Positions 3,074 through 14,830 of a stretch of 64,000 nucleotides of DNA are shown here, in pieces (position 1 is the stretch's first letter; each line of letters starts with the position of its first letter). Made by a program: the position numbers and the translations under genes. Source of the stretch: Candidatus Scalindua sp. SCAELEC01 (lineage in GTDB: Bacteria; Planctomycetota; Brocadiia; Brocadiales; Scalinduaceae); assembly GCA_004282745.1 (NCBI GenBank), contig SHMT01000006.1, positions 1-64,000 on the forward strand. The letters run 5' to 3'. The notes beneath the pieces were generated by a model. It made no database searches. It was not told where the DNA came from and saw nothing but the letters and a program-made list of their open reading frames with translations.

Positions 3074-6000
3074 TCACCGATTTACAATCTTTTTGGAAAC
3101 GAGAGGTTTCTGTAACTTACTCATCAGAACATAGACGACAGGAATCACAAATAATGTCAAGAATGTGCTTGTTAATAAACCACCAACGGCAGCAACGCCC
3201 AACGGCCGACGGCTTTCAGCCCCGGCTCCGAAACCTATGGCAATAGGCAATATTCCCGCTATCGTAGAAGTTGCCGTCATGAGAATAGGTCTGAGCCTTA
3301 TCTTTCCAGCCAGGAGCATCGCTTCACCGGCAGACTTGCCTTTCTCCATTTGCTGGTTAGCAAAATCAACCAGAAGTATTCCGTTCTTCGTTACAATACC
3401 GATTAACAGTATCAGACCTATCTGGCTGAACAAATTGACTCCCATTGCAGGAATCCGGGGAATAAACCCAAAGAAATGATCTGGCGGCAGGCTGGCTGCA
3501 AACTGGTCTAATTCTCCTAAGGCCCATAATGCGCCAAAAGCGCCAAAGGCTGCTAACGGAATTGTAAAGAGTATGGTTAAAGGGTGGATCAGACTTTCAA
3601 ACTGTGAGGCTAATACCATATAGATAATCAGAACAGCCAGAATCATAACAAACAAAATATCATTGCCGCTTTCTACTAAATCCTTTGCCTCTCCCGCCCA
3701 TTCGTACCGAAAACCCGGGGGTAAATCCTGTCTCAAGATGTCTTCAACACGCTCAACGGCATTGCCAAGCGGAATATTAACAGGGGTCGCTTCAATCGTC
3801 GCTGATCGAAAACGATTATGATGGTTAATCGCACTCGGGCCGGCACCGGTTTCATAACTGACAACATTGCTCAACTGGATGAGTTTTCCATTGGAACTGC
3901 GGATATAAATACGTTCTAAATCTGTCGGAGACAATCTGGATTCACGTGCGAGCTGGACGATCACATCATACTCTTTACCCGACAAATTGAACTTGCTCAC
4001 ATCAGACCCGCCAAACAATACCTGCAGGGTACGCGAAATATCTTGTACAGACACCCCTAATGCTGCAGCACGATCACGGTCTATGTTCACTCTGAGCTCC
4101 GGCTTGCTTAGTTCAAAACTTGTACGGACATTCATGAGAAAACCGCAGTTATTGAGCGTCTCTGTCAGTGACTGTGCATATTTGTTCAGCTCTTTTAGAT
4201 CCTGGTTTTGTAAGACTAGTTGAAAATTTTGTGAAAAACCTCTCCCGATTGCCTTGGGTAGTATGGGAAATGCAAGAGCCCCTTCAATCTCATTAAAAAA
4301 CCGTGCTCGCATACCCATTGGCCCACCGATAATCTCGCGAACGTGCCGGTCTCTCTCTTCCTTCAGCCTGATAAATGCGAGACCCTGTGACGACTGGCCT
4401 ACTCCTCCACGGGCAAGCGCAACGGCAGAGAAAAATCCTTCAATTTCCGGTGTTTCACTGATAATTTTTTCGGTCTTTCTTACCATGCGATCGGTGTATT
4501 CACTCGTTGAACCCTCCGGGGAGATTACCATACAAAAGAGACGCCCTTTGTCCTCGTCCGGCAAAAACTCTTTATCTAGCTGTGTATAAAAATAGATACC
4601 TGCTCCCAGGGCAAGCAAGCTGACAACCATGGTTATGAAAGGGTGTTGTATCGCACGCTTCAGCATCTTCTCATAGAGTAGAGAAGTCTTTTGCAACCCT
4701 TCTTCAAATTTTTTCAATACTGCATTTTTGGTATGAAGAGTGTTTGCCTTCAGCAGCCGTGAGGAAATCATCGGTGCAAGCGTAAGGGCGACAAATGTTG
4801 AAATCGTGACACCAAAAGAGATGGCGACGGCAAATTCAATAAACAGACGTCCCGTAACGCTTGTCTGAAATGCCATTGGTAAAAACACAGCAACCAGAGC
4901 AACAGTAGTTACAATTACGGCAAAACCTATCTCTTTCATCCCTGCAATCGCTGCATTCAACGGCAACATTCCTTCTTCAATATGACGATGGATATTCTCT
5001 AATACAACAATTGCATCATCGACGACAAGTCCTATAGCAAGGACAAAAGCCAGCATGGTAATGATGTTTATCGAATATCCAAATAGGTAGAGAACGCCAA
5101 ATGTTGATATGATAGAAACTGGAATCGTGACAGCCGGGATAATTGTCGCACGCAGATTGTGCAGGAAGATATAAATTGTCAACACAACCAAAAAGAACGC
5201 CATCCCAAGAGTGATCCAGACCTCCCTGATCGATTTTTCGACAAAAACAGACTCATCATAGGGGATGGCAAAATGAATACCTTCCGGAATAAGCGGCCGA
5301 ATATTTTCCAGCTCTTTTTTGATGCCTTTAGCGACTTCAATGGTATTTGCCTTTGATTGCTTCACAACTCCGATACCGACAGCTGGTTCCATATTATATC
5401 GGGCAGCAGAGCGTTCATCTTCAACTCCGACAGCTGCGAAGCCTATATCCCGCAGCCTGACAAAATTGATACCTTCGCGTCTGATAACTAATTTGTTGTA
5501 TTCCTCAGGTGTTTTCAGTTCTCCCCTGGTTTCAATAGACATCTCCCTTTCCCAGCTTTCTACACGACCGCTTGGTAATTCAACACTCTGCTCACGCATC
5601 GCTTTCTCCACATCAAGTACCGTGACGCCACGGGCAGCCATCTTCTCTGAATCTAACCAGATTCTTATAGCAAACCGCTTTGATCCTCCAAACATGATGG
5701 AACTGACACCGGGAACCGTTTGAAGTGCATCCTTAAATACATTCTCGGCCAGTGATGTTAATTCCAGCGTAGAGTAGCGGTCACTGTATAGTGCAATCCA
5801 CAGAGAAGCTTTCGCATCGGCATCCTGCTTGGCTATAATCGGTTCATCAACGTCATCAGGCAGCTTTCCCCGGGCGCGGGACACCCTGTCACGAACATCC
5901 TGTGCGGCAATGTCTATGTCGCGGGAAAGATCAAATTCTATTGTCACGGAACTGGACTGCTCCCTACTGGTGCTTGTGAGGGTTTTTATCCTTTCAATGC

Positions 6001-6217
6001 TTGACAGTGTTTCCTCAAGCGGTTCTGTTACCTGAGATTCAACAACCGATGCGCTTGCTCCGGGATAAACCGTCTGCACATTTATAATAGGCGGATCGAT
6101 ATCCGGGAGCTCCCGTACAGGCAGACGTCCGATACCGATAACACCAAATAAAACTAATCCCAAACTCATCATTGTTGCCGATATCGGGCGTTTTATGCTC
6201 AGTTCCGACAGCTTCAT
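3074..6217 (-). CDS. RND multidrug efflux permease (HAE1/AcrB type)
   Basis: 1047 residues, the normal AcrB/MexB length. It starts MKLSELSIKRPISATMMS, the typical first helix region. It has two large periplasmic loops and two six-helix halves. The TM4 proton-relay pair is visible in GLVVDDAIVVLENI, and the matching lysine/glycine-rich TM10 motif in GIVTKNGILLVDF. Family role: proton-driven export of hydrophobic compounds from the outer leaflet or periplasm, acting with an adaptor and a TolC-like outer-membrane channel. Its first codons overlap the stop of the adaptor gene by four bases, so the two are translationally coupled. No TolC homologue lies in the window. The exported substrate cannot be told from sequence. 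Confidence 0.95.
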   Translation of the reverse strand: MKLSELSIKRPISATMMSLGLVLFGVIGIGRLPVRELPDIDPPIINVQTVYPGASASVVESQVTEPLEETLSSIERIKTLTSTSREQSSSVTIEFDLSRDIDIAAQDVRDRVSRARGKLPDDVDEPIIAKQDADAKASLWIALYSDRYSTLELTSLAENVFKDALQTVPGVSSIMFGGSKRFAIRIWLDSEKMAARGVTVLDVEKAMREQSVELPSGRVESWEREMSIETRGELKTPEEYNKLVIRREGINFVRLRDIGFAAVGVEDERSAARYNMEPAVGIGVVKQSKANTIEVAKGIKKELENIRPLIPEGIHFAIPYDESVFVEKSIREVWITLGMAFFLVVLTIYIFLHNLRATIIPAVTIPVSIISTFGVLYLFGYSINIITMLAFVLAIGLVVDDAIVVLENIHRHIEEGMLPLNAAIAGMKEIGFAVIVTTVALVAVFLPMAFQTSVTGRLFIEFAVAISFGVTISTFVALTLAPMISSRLLKANTLHTKNAVLKKFEEGLQKTSLLYEKMLKRAIQHPFITMVVSLLALGAGIYFYTQLDKEFLPDEDKGRLFCMVISPEGSTSEYTDRMVRKTEKIISETPEIEGFFSAVALARGGVGQSSQGLAFIRLKEERDRHVREIIGGPMGMRARFFNEIEGALAFPILPKAIGRGFSQNFQLVLQNQDLKELNKYAQSLTETLNNCGFLMNVRTSFELSKPELRVNIDRDRAAALGVSVQDISRTLQVLFGGSDVSKFNLSGKEYDVIVQLARESRLSPTDLERIYIRSSNGKLIQLSNVVSYETGAGPSAINHHNRFRSATIEATPVNIPLGNAVERVEDILRQDLPPGFRYEWAGEAKDLVESGNDILFVMILAVLIIYMVLASQFESLIHPLTILFTIPLAAFGAFGALWALGELDQFAASLPPDHFFGFIPRIPAMGVNLFSQIGLILLIGIVTKNGILLVDFANQQMEKGKSAGEAMLLAGKIRLRPILMTATSTIAGILPIAIGFGAGAESRRPLGVAAVGGLLTSTFLTLFVIPVVYVLMSKLQKPLVSKKIVNR

Positions 6218-7281
6218 CGTTTTTCCGTTTCTTCCTGAAATTTCATAGTAACCTTTACCCCTTCGTGAAGTTTCTGGTGGCCTTCTGTCACGACAACTTC
6301 GGCTTCCCTTAATCCGGATAGTATCTGAATCATCCCGTCGAACCGCAGACCCACCTCTATTTTTTTTAGATGGACCTTCTCTTCATTGTCAACAGTAAAC
6401 ACAGACACCTCATCACCTTTTAACATCATTGCCGTTTCCGGAATAATAATGGCATTATTTTGTATATCCACGATCAAATTCAGGTTGGCAAACATTCCTC
6501 TTCTTAATGTTCCGTCAGGATTTGGAACCCTGGCTTTTACAAGAGCCGAACGCGTCAACTCATCAATTTGAGGATCAACAAAAAATACTTTTCCGGTAAA
6601 TATCTTTTCCGGATAAGCTGCTACTGTTATTTCAATCTCCTGACCCAGGTTAACTCTGCTTAAATATCTTTCCGGAACATTAAATTCAGCTTTCATCGGA
6701 TTCTGATTGATGATAGAGGTTAGGCTCGTTCCTTTGGTAACAAACTGGCCTTCGCTGACTGACCGTGCTCCCATGACACCGTCAAAAGGCGCAACAATCG
6801 TCGCATCGTTAAGCTGTGCTTCAGTCAGTTTAACAGTTGCGTCATGTACCTCCAACGTTGCAATGGCTTGTTCATATTCCTGTCTTGATACTACCCTGGA
6901 TTCAATAAGAGCCTTATATCTGGCCGTAGATGCCTGTGATAATTTCAGATTTGCTTGAGCTTGCGCAAGGGATGCTTTCAATTTTTTCTCATCAACTCGA
7001 AAAAGGACCCGGCCCTTTTTAACATTCTGACCTTCCTCAAACCCTATGGACTCAACAATCCCGTCTATCTCACTTTGTATTTTAACATACTCATTTGCAG
7101 CCATATTTCCGACTAGAGATATTTTTTCTGATATATGCTGTCTCCTGCTTTTATAAGCAATGACATTTACGGTCATTCCACCGTAGTGTCTCCCCGACTC
7201 CTTATTCTTACAGCCGGTATTGAAGAGAAGTGACGACAAAAGAAAAAACAGCGCCAGGAATCCTGATAAGATTTTTGTCAT
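6214..7281 (-). CDS. RND efflux periplasmic adaptor (membrane fusion) lipoprotein
   Basis: 355 residues with a lipoprotein signal: a hydrophobic stretch from residue 5, then LFNTGC with the lipobox cysteine at 24. The body has the adaptor layout. The first half of the lipoyl-like domain is near residues 60-85 (QSEIDGIVESIGFEEGQNVK), followed by an alpha-helical hairpin with Ala/Gln repeats (95-150), the second lipoyl half (APFDGVMGARSVSEGQFV), then the beta-barrel and membrane-proximal domains. It should bridge the RND permease 3074-6217 to an outer-membrane channel. Order on the minus strand is small ORF 7303-7704, adaptor, permease. The spacing suggests one operon. Confidence 0.93.
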   Translation of the reverse strand: MTKILSGFLALFFLLSSLLFNTGCKNKESGRHYGGMTVNVIAYKSRRQHISEKISLVGNMAANEYVKIQSEIDGIVESIGFEEGQNVKKGRVLFRVDEKKLKASLAQAQANLKLSQASTARYKALIESRVVSRQEYEQAIATLEVHDATVKLTEAQLNDATIVAPFDGVMGARSVSEGQFVTKGTSLTSIINQNPMKAEFNVPERYLSRVNLGQEIEITVAAYPEKIFTGKVFFVDPQIDELTRSALVKARVPNPDGTLRRGMFANLNLIVDIQNNAIIIPETAMMLKGDEVSVFTVDNEEKVHLKKIEVGLRFDGMIQILSGLREAEVVVTEGHQKLHEGVKVTMKFQEETEKR

Positions 7282-7891: not shown

Positions 7892-8260
7892 ATGGGAATG
7901 ATATCAAAAAGAATACTGATTGTTGATGATGAAGAGGGGTATCGAAAGGTACTGTCAAATTCATTGACAGATATAGGCTATGAGACAACGGTGGCAACCT
8001 GTGGTTTTGAGGCCCTCCAGGCAATGAAACGAGAGAACTACATAGCGGTATTATTAGACATGGATATGCCCGGTATGGATGGGATCGAACTGTTAGAGCA
8101 GATACAAAAAGCGCACTGTCCCTCCAATATCATAATTATCACTGCTTATATGTGTGAAGATATGGCAAGGAGGGTAATTGGTAAGGGTGCAACAAAAGTG
8201 ATTAGGAAACCGTTCAGAATGGATGATATCAAGGTATGTCTTAACGAAATAGTTGATTGA
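7892..8260 (+). CDS. Stand-alone response-regulator receiver protein
   Basis: 122 residues, a single CheY-like receiver domain. The acidic pocket Asp12-Asp13, the phospho-acceptor Asp56 in LLDMDMPGMDG, the conserved Thr in IIITAYM and the Lys in IRKPF are all present. There is no output domain. It lies 60 bases upstream of a dCache membrane sensor that has no kinase domain, so the phosphate donor must come from elsewhere. The kinase at 32751-35207 is one candidate. A role as phosphorelay intermediate or as a CheY/Spo0F-like switch is inference. Confidence 0.92.
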   Translation: MGMISKRILIVDDEEGYRKVLSNSLTDIGYETTVATCGFEALQAMKRENYIAVLLDMDMPGMDGIELLEQIQKAHCPSNIIIITAYMCEDMARRVIGKGATKVIRKPFRMDDIKVCLNEIVD

Positions 8261-8320
8261 TGAAACAAGGCGCTAATACAACGTATGCCAGAATAATTTT
8301 ATCTTGGAAGAGGTGCGAAT

Positions 8321-9811
8321 ATGAAGAGGTTATTTAAAGAAAGTATTGTAATCATTACTGTTACCCTTATCTTTTTTTCTCTGTTACCACTTATGCTGTT
8401 TAGAGTTGTTGCATTTCCCAATGCAAAGGACGAATTGAAACAGCATGTTAAAACAACTCTGGATGAAGAGCTCATTAAACAAAAAAACAGTCTGATTCTT
8501 TTTCTGGAAGAGAGAAAGTCTCATGCACGCTCACTTTCCGATGCTATCCAAAGTACCGAACTGATTTACGGATACAAAGATTTCGTGAGTATAATAGATG
8601 AGGGAAACGAGCAGGAGTATTTACGATTAAAAGCCCAAATGGAATGTGCAAAGACGGATTATGGTTACAAAGGGATCTTTGTCTGTGATACCACTGGTAA
8701 AATACGCTTGACTACTTTAAGTGAAAAATCACTTACGGGTCTGGATATCATGAAGGAAAACACTTTTAAACTGGAGGGTATGAATATTGAGAAGCACAAC
8801 CCCTTTCAAGTGGCGCTGAAGACTCTGCATAGTGGCAAACCGCATATTTCCGGTGTTACTCACTTCTCCGTCGACAAAATCCTGCATAATAAAACTTCTG
8901 AAGAGCCATACCTTCCATGGAAGAGCACGCAGCGCACACCGGATATATTTACCGATGAAGAACAGGATAAGGCACTTTCTCTCTTTATATCGTACCCCAT
9001 AAAGGGCCCTGACCATCAGATCACCGGGGTGGTTTTACTCTGGATGGAGATGTCCCTGCTGAACGATGTAATGAAAAATTTTGTCTTAGGAAAGACAGGG
9101 GAAACCTATTTAGTAGATACAGGCGGCGTCATGGTTACAGAATCAAAATTTTCCCGTTATCATATGAAAGATTCGGATGGTCCCCACAAAACACGTTACA
9201 CCGTCAAAGACCCTAATACAGGCAGGTTAACAAAAGGAGTATCGGCATGCATAGCGGGAAAGAAAACCGGTCACAACCTGGATGGGTATAATGATTATGG
9301 CGGTATTAAAGTTGTCGGCGCGTGGTCATGGCTGCCAGATCTGGACATGGGACTCATGGTGGAAATAGATGCCGATGAGGCATTCGTTACGGTAAATAAC
9401 ATTAATACCATGATAAAGTCTCTCATGATCATGATTATTATTCCCGCAATCGTTGTCGCCTCGCTGATACACAGAAAAATGAGTGTCGGCTACATGATAA
9501 AAAACATGGCCCTTCCCAAAAAGACCTTAATTGGTGCAGCGATTATTGTAATGGTAGGCTTCCTATCAGCTATCATGGATGGGTATCAATTGAATAAAGA
9601 GCTTGGTTATGTCAGAGAACAGCAGTACAAGATATCCAACCCTTTCAGTGTATTTGGTGAAATCGGTTCAATTAATTTCCGAAAAAGGGAATCCTTTATC
9701 GAAGATAACATTCAGGAGTTCAAGAGAGAGTATCACAATTTGAGATTCAAAAAAATTCTTCAACAGGAGGATGGAGAGGAAGAGATTATAAAGGAGGAAA
9801 ATTCTCGCTGA
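8321..9811 (+). CDS. dCache-domain membrane sensor without a recognised output domain
   Basis: 496 residues. One transmembrane helix lies at about 8-27, then a long extracytoplasmic region (30-360) with double-Cache hallmarks. These hallmarks are shared with three other proteins of this window: YGYKGIFV near residue 105, GKTGETYLVDTGGVMVTES near 265, and WSWLPDLDMGLMVEIDADEA near 345. Two further helices follow (about 363-383 and 403-423), then a charged tail of about 70 residues ending in an acidic stretch. No HAMP, PAS, kinase or methyl-accepting domain is visible. Family knowledge: dCache domains bind small extracellular ligands. The receiver gene 60 bases upstream and the PAS gene downstream suggest a split signalling module. 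Confidence 0.85.
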   Translation: MKRLFKESIVIITVTLIFFSLLPLMLFRVVAFPNAKDELKQHVKTTLDEELIKQKNSLILFLEERKSHARSLSDAIQSTELIYGYKDFVSIIDEGNEQEYLRLKAQMECAKTDYGYKGIFVCDTTGKIRLTTLSEKSLTGLDIMKENTFKLEGMNIEKHNPFQVALKTLHSGKPHISGVTHFSVDKILHNKTSEEPYLPWKSTQRTPDIFTDEEQDKALSLFISYPIKGPDHQITGVVLLWMEMSLLNDVMKNFVLGKTGETYLVDTGGVMVTESKFSRYHMKDSDGPHKTRYTVKDPNTGRLTKGVSACIAGKKTGHNLDGYNDYGGIKVVGAWSWLPDLDMGLMVEIDADEAFVTVNNINTMIKSLMIMIIIPAIVVASLIHRKMSVGYMIKNMALPKKTLIGAAIIVMVGFLSAIMDGYQLNKELGYVREQQYKISNPFSVFGEIGSINFRKRESFIEDNIQEFKREYHNLRFKKILQQEDGEEEIIKEENSR

Positions 9812-9920
9812 AAAAAAAGTAGCAGAATGGGTTTAACGGTTTCTAGGAGCTATAGGAAGTATGGTTAGGTTTGTCAGTGCTATTTTTAGAACACCATATT
9901 TATTATGAAAGGAGTTATTA

Positions 9921-10325
9921 ATGAATGACTCAATGTTGTCAACAGGGGGAAAAATAAAAAACCAGGAAGGAAAACAGGACTTTACAACAAAAACGACAAA
10001 AAAGGGGTGGTTTGAGTATGAATCATCGTATGATGGTGTCCTGTTGAATATTGATATTGAAGGTGCAAAGCTTCTCGGTTTCACCTCTCCTGATGATGTA
10101 ATTGGAAAAAAGATTAATGAGCTGTATGCACACCCCTATGACCATGAAAAGACCTTATCCATGTTGATCAGGGACGGAAAGGTAAATGGGTATTTTACTC
10201 TGATGAAAGGGCGGGAAGACCAATTGTTTTATATCAAACAGAACAGTAAGCTCATTGTTGACGATCACTATTACAATTTACCCTCAAAGGTCCAGTCCAG
10301 CTTCGAATTTTCTCGGTATATATAG
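9921..10325 (+). CDS. Small single-PAS-domain protein
   Basis: 134 residues, soluble. From about residue 45 it reads as one PAS fold: VLLNIDIEGAKLLGFTSPDD, then IGKKINELY, and a C-terminal beta-sheet region FYIKQNSKLIVDDHYYNL. The first 35 residues are polar and probably disordered. AAGGAG lies seven bases before ATG 9921. It sits between a dCache sensor without output and narK. It could be a cytosolic sensor or partner that supplies the PAS module missing from the 8321-9811 protein, which is inference. No cofactor-binding residue can be assigned. Confidence 0.7.
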   Translation: MNDSMLSTGGKIKNQEGKQDFTTKTTKKGWFEYESSYDGVLLNIDIEGAKLLGFTSPDDVIGKKINELYAHPYDHEKTLSMLIRDGKVNGYFTLMKGREDQLFYIKQNSKLIVDDHYYNLPSKVQSSFEFSRYI

Positions 10326-10389
10326 CATTTCAATGCTATGGTTGTTTTGAAAAATTTTTTATCTTATAGGTTACAGGAGATATTGTATT

Positions 10390-11634
10390 ATGAGTAACTC
10401 TGCAGTCACATTACAGGGAAACACAAGAGTTCTGATACTTGGTACGTTAGCTTTTGCCGTATGCTTTGCCGGCTGGTCTCTCTTTGGCCCTTTAGCGGTA
10501 TATATGAAGGCGGAATTCAATCTGTCTTCATCGGCAGTAGGATTGTTACTTGCGACACCGGTTTTACTCGGTTCGATTGTCAGAGTGCCTATCGGTATTT
10601 TAACTGATGAATATGGCGGAAGAAAGATCTTTAGTGCGCTGATGTTATTTACCTTTTTCCCCATGTTCTTTGCGACTTTTGTACACAGCTACCCGATGTT
10701 ACTCCTATGCGGGTTTTTCTTTGGTGTGGCCGGCGCATCATTTGCGGTCGGTATTCCACAGATATCGCAATGGTATCCCAAAGAAAAACAGGGATTGGCG
10801 CTGGGAATTTATGGTGTCGGGAATGTAGGCACTGCCCTGGCAGTCTTTGGCGCGCCGGTTATTGCGGAATCTATAGGATGGAACAAGGTGTTTATCTTCT
10901 ACTCCTTTCCGTTGCTTGGGATGGCCGCCATTTACTGGTTTTTTTCTGCAGATGCACCGAAACCCAAGAACGCCAGACCTCAAACATTTAGTGATAAGAT
11001 AAAGGTATATAAGTCTTCCCACCTGATATGGGTATTTTCCCTTTTCTATTTTATGACCTTTGGCTTTTTTGTATGTTTTGCGTTGTTTCTGCCATCTTAT
11101 CTCATAGATACCTTCGGCGTTACACCGATAAAGGCGGGGACGTTTACTTCAATATTTGTATTTCTGGCAACTTTTGTGAGGATATTAGGAGGATACCTGG
11201 GAGATAAATTTTCGGGAAGAAATCTTTTGACGATTCTTTCCCTTTCACTCATTGGCGTGCTCTTCTATCTGAACCTGAACAGCTCTCTGACACTTGGCCT
11301 TGCGGCATTTTATTGCATGGCATGTTTATTGGGTATCGGCAACGGTGTTGTTTTTAAACTTGTTGCGGAATATTTTCCAAAAGACACCGGTACCGTAGGA
11401 GGTTTGGTGGGAGCGGCCGGAGGGCTTGGCGGTTTTTTTCTCCCGATAGCAATGGGCACCATTAAAGATTATACTAACAATAATTCGCTTGGCTTTATCT
11501 TCATATCTCTTGTCTGTCTGATGTGTCTCTCCTTTATGGAAAAGAAGACATTTAGAAAGAGTGATAGTACAATAACAGAGAAAGAGAGTACCTTCACGAA
11601 GGTTAACAAGAAGAGTGAACCGATTACACTTTAA
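10390..11634 (+). CDS. narK: NarK-type nitrate/nitrite transporter (MFS)
   Basis: 414 residues with twelve predicted helices, the standard NarK/NasA size. The MFS loop GILTDEYGGRKIF lies between TM2 and TM3. The nitrate-signature regions are clear: FFGVAGASFAVGIPQISQWY in the N-half and GNGVVFKLVAEYFPKDTGTV with GGLVGAAGGLGGFFLP in the C-half. The family carries nitrate/nitrite antiport or proton symport across the cytoplasmic membrane. AGGAGA with a nine-base gap precedes ATG 10390. The next gene (a duplicated TDT channel) starts at or just beyond its stop codon, so the two are probably co-translated. In an anammox cell it would feed or balance nitrite/nitrate for the catabolic compartment. 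Confidence 0.95.
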   Translation: MSNSAVTLQGNTRVLILGTLAFAVCFAGWSLFGPLAVYMKAEFNLSSSAVGLLLATPVLLGSIVRVPIGILTDEYGGRKIFSALMLFTFFPMFFATFVHSYPMLLLCGFFFGVAGASFAVGIPQISQWYPKEKQGLALGIYGVGNVGTALAVFGAPVIAESIGWNKVFIFYSFPLLGMAAIYWFFSADAPKPKNARPQTFSDKIKVYKSSHLIWVFSLFYFMTFGFFVCFALFLPSYLIDTFGVTPIKAGTFTSIFVFLATFVRILGGYLGDKFSGRNLLTILSLSLIGVLFYLNLNSSLTLGLAAFYCMACLLGIGNGVVFKLVAEYFPKDTGTVGGLVGAAGGLGGFFLPIAMGTIKDYTNNNSLGFIFISLVCLMCLSFMEKKTFRKSDSTITEKESTFTKVNKKSEPITL

Positions 11635-11638
11635 TAGT

Positions 11639-13900
11639 ATGAATATATTACAATTCACGTTATATTCGGTAAACACCCGCTGGTTCATTGTGGGCATAGC
11701 TACGATCATGATGGCGCTCAGCGCGTCTTCTTATGGCTACAACGCAGTCTCTTTCTATCTCTTTACCACAGGTATGGGAGTGTTCTTTACCGTAGCGCTC
11801 TTTCTGGTTATCAAGGCCCTTTTATACTATAAAGATTTTTTACGCGAGTTGATCGATCCTGCAAAGCTGCACTACTCTTTCTCGCTTGTCGGAATTGTGG
11901 GGCTTACGGGCATCTGTGCCTCTAAGCTGTTTTACTGGCATACCGTTACATACATTTTCTGGTATGCGGCTCTTGTCCTTTGGGTAAGCACCACGCTGTC
12001 TTCGTTTACTGTTTTATTTCTATACCGTAAATCTGAAGATCGAAGGATTGAAGAAATCCTGCACGGGGGGTGGTTCTTTGTGGTTATAGGCACTCAGTTT
12101 ATGGCCCTGTTGAGTATCGATGTTGCCGGACAGGCGACAGGACATACACTACTCATCCAATATTTTTCGTTTGCTCTGTGGTCTGTTGGCACCTTTTTGT
12201 ATCTGATGTTTATGGCGTTCATGATCTGGAGGTTGGTTTTTTATCCGGTTACCCATGATACAGAGCTCTCATCATATTGGTTGATTACCGGAGCTGCGGC
12301 AGTTACCACAATGGCAGGTGTCGCCCTCTATCAACAGGTACAGATGACGGGCGGCCCTTTTGCGGAACTGCTTCCATTCCTGAAGGGATTTTCTCTGTTT
12401 TTCTGGTTTATCGGGCTGTGGTGGTTGCCGTTTCTGATTATCCTGGTGATAAGAAAACAGATTTGCGGCAGCTGGAAATTACCCTTTAACGTGGGGTATT
12501 GGGAAATTGTGCTTTCTCTGTCTTTATATGCGACCGGCACAAAGCAGTTAACCGGATTATTTGATGAGCGATTCATTATCACATTCGCTTTATATATTTC
12601 GATTATCGGTGCTGTAGCCTATTGTTTTGCATCTTCCTTTACTCTTGCACACTTGACGGTGATACCGGTATGGAAGGCAATCCCATTGCAGGCGGTAGCC
12701 GTAAAGTGGCATGCATTACTCGGTAACGTAATACATGTTTTACAGATTGCGGTATACTCGGTAAACGCCCGCTGGTTTATTGTTGCCATGGCAACGATCA
12801 TGATGGCACTCAGCTCTTCATCTTATGGCTACAACGCAGTCTCTTCCTATCTCTTCATCACAGGTCTGGGAGTGTTCTTTACCGTCGTAATCTTTATGGG
12901 TATTAAGGCTTTCCTGTACTATGAAGATCTGTTACACGAGCTGCTCGACCTTGAAAAGCTGCACTACTCTTTCTCTCTTGTCGGAATCGTAGCCCTCACG
13001 GGTATTTGTGTATCTAAACTGTTTGGCCTGCATACCGTTACATACATTTTCTGGTATGCGGCTCTTGTCCTCTGGGTAATCACCACGCTGTCATCGTTTA
13101 CGATTCTTTTTCTGTACCGTAAATCTGAGGACAGAAAGATTGAAGAAATCCTGCACGGGGGCTGGTTCTTTGTGGTTATAGGCACTCAGTTTACGGCCCT
13201 GTTGAGTATCGATGTTGCCGGACAGGTTACAGGACATACACTGCTTATCCAGTATATTTCGTTTGTGTTGTGGTCTGTTGGCACATTTTTATACCTGACG
13301 TTTATGACGTTCGTGGTCTTTAGGTTAGTTTTTTATCCGGTCACCCATGATACAGAGCTCTCATCGTATTGGATGAATACCGGGGCGGCGGCGATTACGA
13401 CGGTTGTCTGCGCAGCATTGCATCAACAGATATACATGACGGGAGACCCCTTGGGAGAGTTGCTTCCGTTCCTGAAAGGATTTGCCCTCTTCTTCTGGTC
13501 CATCGGGCTGTGGTGGTTGCCGTTTCTGATTATTCTGGCAATAAGAAAACAGGTTAAAAAAGGCTGGAAATTACCGTTTACCGTGGGGTATTGGGAAATA
13601 GTGTTCGCCATATGTTTATTCGCTACTGGCACAACACAGCTAACCGGATTATTCGATGAACATTTCATTATCACCTTTGCTTTATATATTTCGATTATCG
13701 GTGCTGTAGCCTATTGTTTTGCATCTTCCTTCACTCTTGCACACTTGATCGTAATACCGGCATGGAAGACAATACCTTTGCAGGCAGTAACAATAAAATG
13801 GCATCCGATACGCAGAGGCACAATACACATTTTACAGATCGCGGCATGCTCGGCCAGTCTTCGCTGGCTTACCAGCGCAATGGTTACCATAACGATTTAA
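11639..13900 (+). CDS. Tandemly duplicated TDT/SLAC1-family anion channel or transporter
   Basis: About 753 residues, twice the usual length of the tellurite-resistance/dicarboxylate (TehA/Mae1/SLAC1) family. Two full copies of a roughly 364-residue, about ten-helix unit lie end to end without a linker. Landmarks repeat in each copy: RWFIVGIATIMMALSASSYG, HYSFSLVGIVGLTGIC, EEILHGGWFFVVIGTQF, SIDVAGQATGHTLLIQY, GFSLFFWFIGLWWLPFL. A third copy begins at 13823 and stops after 25 codons. ATG 11639 lies five bases past the narK stop. A GTG at 11615 would add eight residues. Plant SLAC1 and bacterial TehA relatives pass nitrate, chloride or dicarboxylates. Pairing with narK points to nitrate or nitrite (inference). 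Confidence 0.85.
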   Translation: MNILQFTLYSVNTRWFIVGIATIMMALSASSYGYNAVSFYLFTTGMGVFFTVALFLVIKALLYYKDFLRELIDPAKLHYSFSLVGIVGLTGICASKLFYWHTVTYIFWYAALVLWVSTTLSSFTVLFLYRKSEDRRIEEILHGGWFFVVIGTQFMALLSIDVAGQATGHTLLIQYFSFALWSVGTFLYLMFMAFMIWRLVFYPVTHDTELSSYWLITGAAAVTTMAGVALYQQVQMTGGPFAELLPFLKGFSLFFWFIGLWWLPFLIILVIRKQICGSWKLPFNVGYWEIVLSLSLYATGTKQLTGLFDERFIITFALYISIIGAVAYCFASSFTLAHLTVIPVWKAIPLQAVAVKWHALLGNVIHVLQIAVYSVNARWFIVAMATIMMALSSSSYGYNAVSSYLFITGLGVFFTVVIFMGIKAFLYYEDLLHELLDLEKLHYSFSLVGIVALTGICVSKLFGLHTVTYIFWYAALVLWVITTLSSFTILFLYRKSEDRKIEEILHGGWFFVVIGTQFTALLSIDVAGQVTGHTLLIQYISFVLWSVGTFLYLTFMTFVVFRLVFYPVTHDTELSSYWMNTGAAAITTVVCAALHQQIYMTGDPLGELLPFLKGFALFFWSIGLWWLPFLIILAIRKQVKKGWKLPFTVGYWEIVFAICLFATGTTQLTGLFDEHFIITFALYISIIGAVAYCFASSFTLAHLIVIPAWKTIPLQAVTIKWHPIRRGTIHILQIAACSASLRWLTSAMVTITI
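11639..13900 (+). repeat. 1092-bp in-frame tandem repeat, two full copies and one truncated copy
   Basis: Unit 1 is 11639-12730, unit 2 is 12731-13822, and unit 3 is 13823 to the stop at 13900. The period of 1092 bases (364 codons) was measured on the aligned GTAAAC.CCCGCTGG segments at 11669 and 12761, and on the matching site at 13853. Similarity is high at DNA level. The stretches at 12594-12656 and 13686-13748 (end of each unit) are nearly identical, so the duplication is recent or maintained by gene conversion. Unit 3 loses resemblance near the stop codon. Confidence 0.9.
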
Positions 13901-13964
13901 GACAACGGACATCTTACATACATTGATTAATTTATTTACCGGATAAAAAGTAAGGAACATTTAC

Positions 13965-14717
13965 ATGAAACTAATTATTACTATTTGTACCGTATTTTTA
14001 ATGTCATCCTTTCATATTTATGCAGAAGAAGATACCGTTCATGCTCATAAATATCACAAAGAACAGAGGTTATATTATTGGGAACACCTTGATTCAAAAT
14101 GTACCGTTTGCGGAAGTGGGGGGACCCAATCACCCATCAATATCAGTAAATGTAAAAAGAGAGATTTAGGCAGCCTGGAGTTCTCTTACCGGGAAACTCC
14201 TTTGAAAGCAATCAACAACGGCCATACAATAAAAGTGGAATATGAGAGAGGAAGCACGGTAACGATTGAGAGAGAAGAGTTTACCCTCCTGGAGTTTCAT
14301 TTTCACCATCCAAGTGAACACAAAATAAGAGGAAAAACTTACGACATGGAGATCCATTTTGTACATCGGAGTGAAAGCAAGGGGTTCCTATCTGTTGTGA
14401 GTGTCTTTATCAACGAAGGAAAACATAACGTCACCATCGAACCGATCTGGGACAATATCTTTGAAGGAATAGATGAAAAAAACCAATTGGTACCGTTAAC
14501 TATTAACGCTGAAGAGCTGCTGCCTGATGACAGATCTTACTATTACTATTATGGATCAGTCACTACTCCCCCCTGTAGTGAAGGCGTTAACTGGTACATT
14601 TTTAAATCACCGATTGAGATGTCAAATACGCAGATAAAAAAATTCGAAACTGTTATAGGGTTTAACGCAAGGCCAGTACAACCTATTAATTATCGTTTGG
14701 TTTTTGAATCAAAATAA
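13965..14717 (+). CDS. Alpha-type carbonic anhydrase, exported
   Basis: 250 residues with a signal peptide (cleavage likely after HIYA, residue 20). Alpha-CA motifs occur in order: QSPINI (54-59), NNGHTIKVEY (84-93), zinc ligands His112 and His114 in EFHFHHPSEH, third ligand His131 in MEIHFVH, and the substrate-pocket segment SVTTPPCSEGVNW. The reaction is reversible hydration of CO2 to bicarbonate outside the cytoplasm. Cys46 and the Cys of TPPCSEG could form the usual stabilising disulfide. AAGGA precedes ATG 13965. It fits a carbon-supply or pH role together with the SulP transporter at 1124. Neighbouring nitrate/nitrite transport genes suggest co-regulation with catabolism (inference). 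Confidence 0.95.
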   Translation: MKLIITICTVFLMSSFHIYAEEDTVHAHKYHKEQRLYYWEHLDSKCTVCGSGGTQSPINISKCKKRDLGSLEFSYRETPLKAINNGHTIKVEYERGSTVTIEREEFTLLEFHFHHPSEHKIRGKTYDMEIHFVHRSESKGFLSVVSVFINEGKHNVTIEPIWDNIFEGIDEKNQLVPLTINAEELLPDDRSYYYYYGSVTTPPCSEGVNWYIFKSPIEMSNTQIKKFETVIGFNARPVQPINYRLVFESK

Positions 14718-14830
14718 AAAATGCTCGGTGGACAGGAAAGTTTAAAAGAATGTATTCATAATGTAAATATAGGATGTAATCAGGGATAGCTTCTCTATTT
14801 ATCCGCTTATCACCCTCTTCAATATTCAAA

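Follow-up and report, generated by a model that had tools for sequence, protein, structure and literature searches.

Is a gene that encodes two TDT/SLAC1-type channel units in one frame, followed by the beginning of a third, a lasting form of the channel, an assembly error or a recent accident? Such a gene lies in a 64,000-nucleotide stretch of contig SHMT01000006.1 from the marine anammox bacterium Candidatus Scalindua sp. SCAELEC01, called the window here. We find that the fused gene is a lasting variant, neither assembly error nor recent accident, and that the two-unit form is a conserved variant of a known channel superfamily, undescribed within the searches made. Our explanation as a whole, which we consider rather probable, combines a covalently joined two-pore TDT/SLAC1 anion channel, its module context, an early array, recombination, selection and a gate difference.

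Two units in one reading frame

The gene and its parts are as follows.

11639-13900, + strand: two-unit TDT/SLAC1 gene, 753 amino acids, stop TAA at 13898-13900
11639-12730, + strand: unit 1, 364 codons, predicted ten-helix unit, Leu at the TM9 gate position
12677-12766, + strand: linker from TM10 of unit 1 to TM1 of unit 2, about 30 residues, limits taken from the helix model
12731-13822, + strand: unit 2, 364 codons, Phe at the TM9 gate position
13823-13897, + strand: third-unit stump, 25 codons, covering about TM1

The frame is free of stops from 11576 to the terminal TAA. ATG 11639 is the likely start codon, just preceded by the stop of a NarK-like gene (11632-11634). Because unit 2 begins with ATA (Ile) in place of a start codon, there is no separate start at the unit border. 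The initial annotation had described two units sharing one frame with an exact 1092-base period, and self-comparison bears this out over the full length with zero indels. The units are 82.5% identical at the DNA level and 78% at the protein level, far above chance, and their mismatches at the three codon positions (52/38/101) have the pattern expected of constrained coding sequence. The stump, also noted before, is confirmed to start at 13823 in phase with units 1 and 2 and to end after 25 codons.

Each unit separately matches PF03595 (Pfam SLAC1), at 105.3 and 108.2 bits with a curated cut-off of 27.9 bits, so the proposed TDT/SLAC1 membership passes a profile search. The score for TIGR00816 (tdt), 90.7 bits, is below its curated cut-off of 237.25, and the fused protein is therefore filed under the PF03595 SLAC1/TDT superfamily only.

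An AlphaFold model of unit 2, folded as a single unit with 41 sequences, has ten long helices (pLDDT 83, pTM 0.84). Unit 1, being 78% identical to unit 2, would adopt the same ten-helix fold. Among PDB structures, the unit model has 22 fold matches at E ≤ 0.001; every one is a TehA, SLAC1 or SLAH chain, and TehA reaches the highest target TM-score (0.86). PDB sequence searches with the family profile gave no match at E ≤ 0.001, nor did those with canonical TDTs of the same genome; the PDB kinship is seen by fold only. Residue positions were numbered by way of E. coli TehA as an intermediate. Structure prediction of the 753-residue chain, a check suggested at the outset, supports the fold class, as the top eleven structure matches are still TehA/SLAC1-type, but not a domain arrangement, as the double chain folded poorly (pLDDT 58) and unit placement was not taken from the model.

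A close comparison is H. influenzae TehA of the TDT family (PDB 3m71, 8en9), which has the ten-helix fold in common with the fused protein (target TM-score 0.83-0.86) but carries one unit per chain rather than two, at about 12% identity. Plant SLAC1/SLAH anion channels likewise share the fold and superfamily, but they are single-unit chains with regulatory cytosolic domains.

Relatives and history of the array

NarK-linked TDT genes are present in seven of the 17 genomes of the window's family. Fused doubles, all with 364-residue units at the same locus, occur in G000 (the window genome), G006, G012, G013 and G015, and single units in G001 and G010. The survey of copy number in Scalindua-like genomes that the initial annotation had called for has thus found doubles in four other genomes and singles in two. 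No double was found outside the window's family among 392 Planctomycetota genomes drawn, 52 of which have a PF03595 match. A contig scan returned nine loci with the alignment as query and none with one unit as query; the matching loci include ones from Candidatus Scalindua RBC_AMX3, OFTM1, OFTM180 and P6-7 and from Brocadiaceae bacterium S225. In open-access full texts, no description of fused or tandem TDT proteins was found.

The window genome is a draft of 104 contigs, in which an assembly artefact might be suspected. However, the copies have diverged and the frame is open throughout. Since the two-unit frame recurs at this locus in five separate assemblies, with 191 differing sites between the window copies, assembly collapse is unlikely, and we regard an artefact as extremely improbable. 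Incidentally, a Brocadiales-type TDT in another Planctomycetota metagenome assembly (L068 5712-7273) is spread over two frames; this split is a frameshift or sequencing error.

In Brocadiaceae, single-unit TDTs behind NarK (e.g., L045, L055) hold the same module position and are about 50% identical to unit 2. They differ in having one unit followed by a different C-terminal tail of about 70 residues, with the gate Phe kept (L045, L055). This tail is a conserved domain at L045 4149-5402, L055 3990-5243 and other Brocadiaceae loci. Scalindua would have lost it when a unit start replaced the tail.

In every double, and in the G001 single as well, the C-terminus continues into a stretch similar to residues 1 to 25-45 of a unit. 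The continuation extends 65-108 residues in the fused relatives, and the G010 single unit is without a stump. Homology between the window and G001 stumps ends at 13893, and from 13911 the window DNA matches the carbonic-anhydrase region of G010.

13911-14724, + strand: carbonic-anhydrase segment (gene of the alpha type at 13965-14717), also present in G010 and here following closely on the stump

The third unit had been read as one that 'dies'. This reading is not supported, and the stump is no accident of the window genome, as a longer tail is found at the end of all fused relatives and one like it closes the G001 single. The stump is rather a conserved tail, shortened in the window genome where the carbonic-anhydrase segment joins, and its predicted contribution is a TM1-like helix following unit 2. 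The carbonic anhydrase gene lies directly behind the TDT gene in the window and in G010 but not in G001, where a ferritin-like gene is found. The segment was gained or lost as a block.

Between unit 1 and unit 2, dS is 0.54 and dN/dS is 0.22, and dN/dS is 0.24 when single-unit relatives are compared. By these ratios, both units are constrained, and the fused form seems to be kept by selection. From the sister species G001, the two window units are equally far, with dN of 0.115 and 0.127 and dS of 0.47-0.51. Since the dS between units is close to that between species, the units were duplicated, or last homogenised, at about the time when the two species separated. A recent duplication, as had been proposed, is therefore contradicted, 0.54 being near the divergence between two species of the window's genus.

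In the tree, the two window units group with each other (support 92/95). One origin each for all first units and for all second units was rejected (AU p 0.0006 and 0.035). Thus, recombination or parallel expansion must have acted. In the other genus, second units form a firm clade (100/99) and first units a weak one (66/79). G010 branches near the tree base with weak support (68/53).

A local trace of conversion is possible in the window.

12587-12639, + strand: candidate conversion tract, a 53-base run identical in both units (partner 13679-13731)

The run of shared variants in the window has p 0.004 at all sites and 0.12 at third positions, and a stronger run in G015 has p 0.0005 on third positions. 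The idea of ongoing conversion thus retains a local signal in both genomes, but third positions in the window do not support it. The single unit of G001 has a u1-like 5′ end and a u2-like 3′ end (24:5 and 7:20 informative sites, p 0.009). This mosaic is compatible with contraction of an array, as well as with one unit in the ancestor that was later duplicated twice.

Because junction lengths are equal everywhere, copy number would have changed in register. We propose an early origin of the array within the Scalindua line, in which a single-unit gene would have exchanged its ancestral cytosolic tail for the beginning of a further unit. Recombination in register, involving units and stump, may then have moved copy number between one and two, which would keep the 1092-base period and the reading frame exact. 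Given the shared junction, the tree and the mosaic similarity, such recombination between units and stump would best explain the copy-number changes.

How often doubling occurred is a separate matter. In one history, the ancestor had one unit and a stump, and doubling took place twice independently, once in the window species and once in the other genus, when the stump of one copy crossed over unequally with the matching beginning of a unit in another copy. The single unit with stump in the sister species suits this history, as do the pairing of the window units and the rejection of shared first-unit and second-unit clades, and the stump provides homology for in-register crossing-over. On the other hand, dS between the window units is not below their dS to G001, so that doubling should not postdate the species split, and local conversion could yield the same tree. 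We find this history possible, if somewhat short of probable. In another history, one ancient doubling preceded the split of the two genera, followed by conversion in the window lineage and unit loss in G001 and G010. It would account for the identical junctions, the same dS relation, the conversion tract in G015 with its weaker counterpart in the window, and the mosaic ends of G001. However, it needs conversion over much of the window unit to override the tree as well as two losses, and it has to accommodate a stumpless G010 weakly placed near the base. It, too, may be true without reaching an even chance. One old doubling with conversion and two stump-seeded doublings are about equally likely.

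Gate positions and assembly of the fused chain

The codons aligned with the gating Phe262 of H. influenzae TehA (HiTehA) on TM9 differ between the units.

12512-12514, + strand: unit 1 codon 292, CTT (Leu)
13604-13606, + strand: unit 2 codon 292, TTC (Phe)

One chain therefore combines two gate types. In HiTehA, Phe262 blocks the pore, and F262A raises conductance (PMC11050165). F450A likewise raises the conductance of unphosphorylated SLAC1 (PMC10645844). Scalindua module units have Leu at the gate position in all cases except window unit 2. Phe occupies this position in every canonical TDT examined and, L041 aside, in every Brocadiaceae module TDT examined; a gating Phe is not a strict defining feature of the PF03595 superfamily.

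At other mapped pore positions, the window units differ at 20 (I/M) and 215 (L/M). No enrichment of differences at pore positions is claimed, as these are too few against a 22% background. At position 81 on TM3, all four second units of the other genus (L035, L036, L037, L038) have His, and all other aligned TDTs except E. coli TehA have Phe. His81 is not claimed as pore-lining because the register of TM3 relative to TehA is uncertain.

Two complete ten-helix pore units would be covalently joined in one membrane anion channel chain. Since each unit has an even number of helices, both should have the same membrane orientation and each should form its own pore, giving two parallel pores per chain. 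The linker length is identical in every fused relative, which have the same period.

Channels of the TDT/SLAC1 family normally consist of three single units. Repeat fusions are well known from channels with four-fold symmetry, whose assembly takes up two or four units without remainder. Three is no multiple of two, so the fused protein tests whether the TDT/SLAC1 trimer is obligatory. TehA is a single-unit chain that assembles as a trimer (PMC11050165). SLAC1/SLAH trimers of mixed subunits are deposited in the PDB (9m7s, 9m7w).

It is plausible that fusion changes the oligomer, and the question of stoichiometry raised by the initial annotation is valid and testable. Tentatively, and with less than even confidence, we suggest a non-standard assembly of a natural two-unit concatemer with two differently gated pores (Leu, Phe) per chain. 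For example, two chains might provide four pores, two trimers might be linked by three chains, or a fused pair might combine with a single-unit TDT encoded at another locus of the genome. Within a SLAC1 trimer, the protomers open in concert (PMC10645844), and fusing two protomers may therefore reinforce this coupling. The fused protein also tests whether gating can be permanently coupled between neighbouring pores.

Alternatively, the duplication could be passive and the trimer ordinary, with the units cut apart after translation or with only one of them conducting. Cleavage could occur in the linker. However, both units are equally constrained, the fused frame is retained in five genomes, and unit 2 does not begin with a start codon, making a passive duplication quite unlikely. 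Sister species have one or two units at the same locus, and comparing them would be a ready natural experiment.

Genomic context and likely substrate

The fused gene is preceded by the following genes.

3074-7281, - strand: RND-type efflux pump and its membrane-fusion partner, upstream of the module
7892-10325, + strand: response regulator, Cache-domain protein and PAS-like protein, in the same order in Brocadiales relatives
10390-11634, + strand: NarK-like MFS transporter, directly upstream of the fused gene, with TIGR00886 NarK as best NCBIfam model

The MFS protein matches TIGR00886 over the full profile length with 244.4 bits, the best of all models. Because this is below the curated cut-off of 311.7, we call it NarK-like. 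The earlier placement of the TDT gene is thus correct in position, the neighbour being NarK-like.

The order response regulator, Cache, PAS-like, NarK-like and TDT is found at nearly all Scalindua loci and at most Brocadiales loci examined; at locus L063, the response regulator was not matched. Together with the TDT gene, the genes at 7892-11634 look like an anammox-wide module for nitrate/nitrite sensing and transport. Since the TDT gene ends this conserved five-gene module behind the NarK-like transporter, nitrate or nitrite is, by gene context, the likely substrate. The fused channel would conduct nitrate or nitrite through an anammox membrane, with the linked sensor genes exerting control, and it is an overlooked candidate nitrate/nitrite channel in anammox bacteria, of which the full texts searched gave no description.

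The fused NarK1-NarK2 of Paracoccus also joins two transporter domains of the same family in nitrate/nitrite traffic. As its MFS fold functions singly, a conflict with three-fold assembly does not arise there.

SLAC1 conducts chloride and nitrate (PMC10645844). TDT and SLAC proteins are unmentioned in a transcriptome study of Kuenenia transporters (PMC7438415). In S. profunda, the flanks of narK could not be assigned to nitrate assimilation (PMC3655542). There, narK is scal03007 and carbonic anhydrase is scal03005 (PMC3655542), and the single gene number between them would correspond to the place of the fused gene here.
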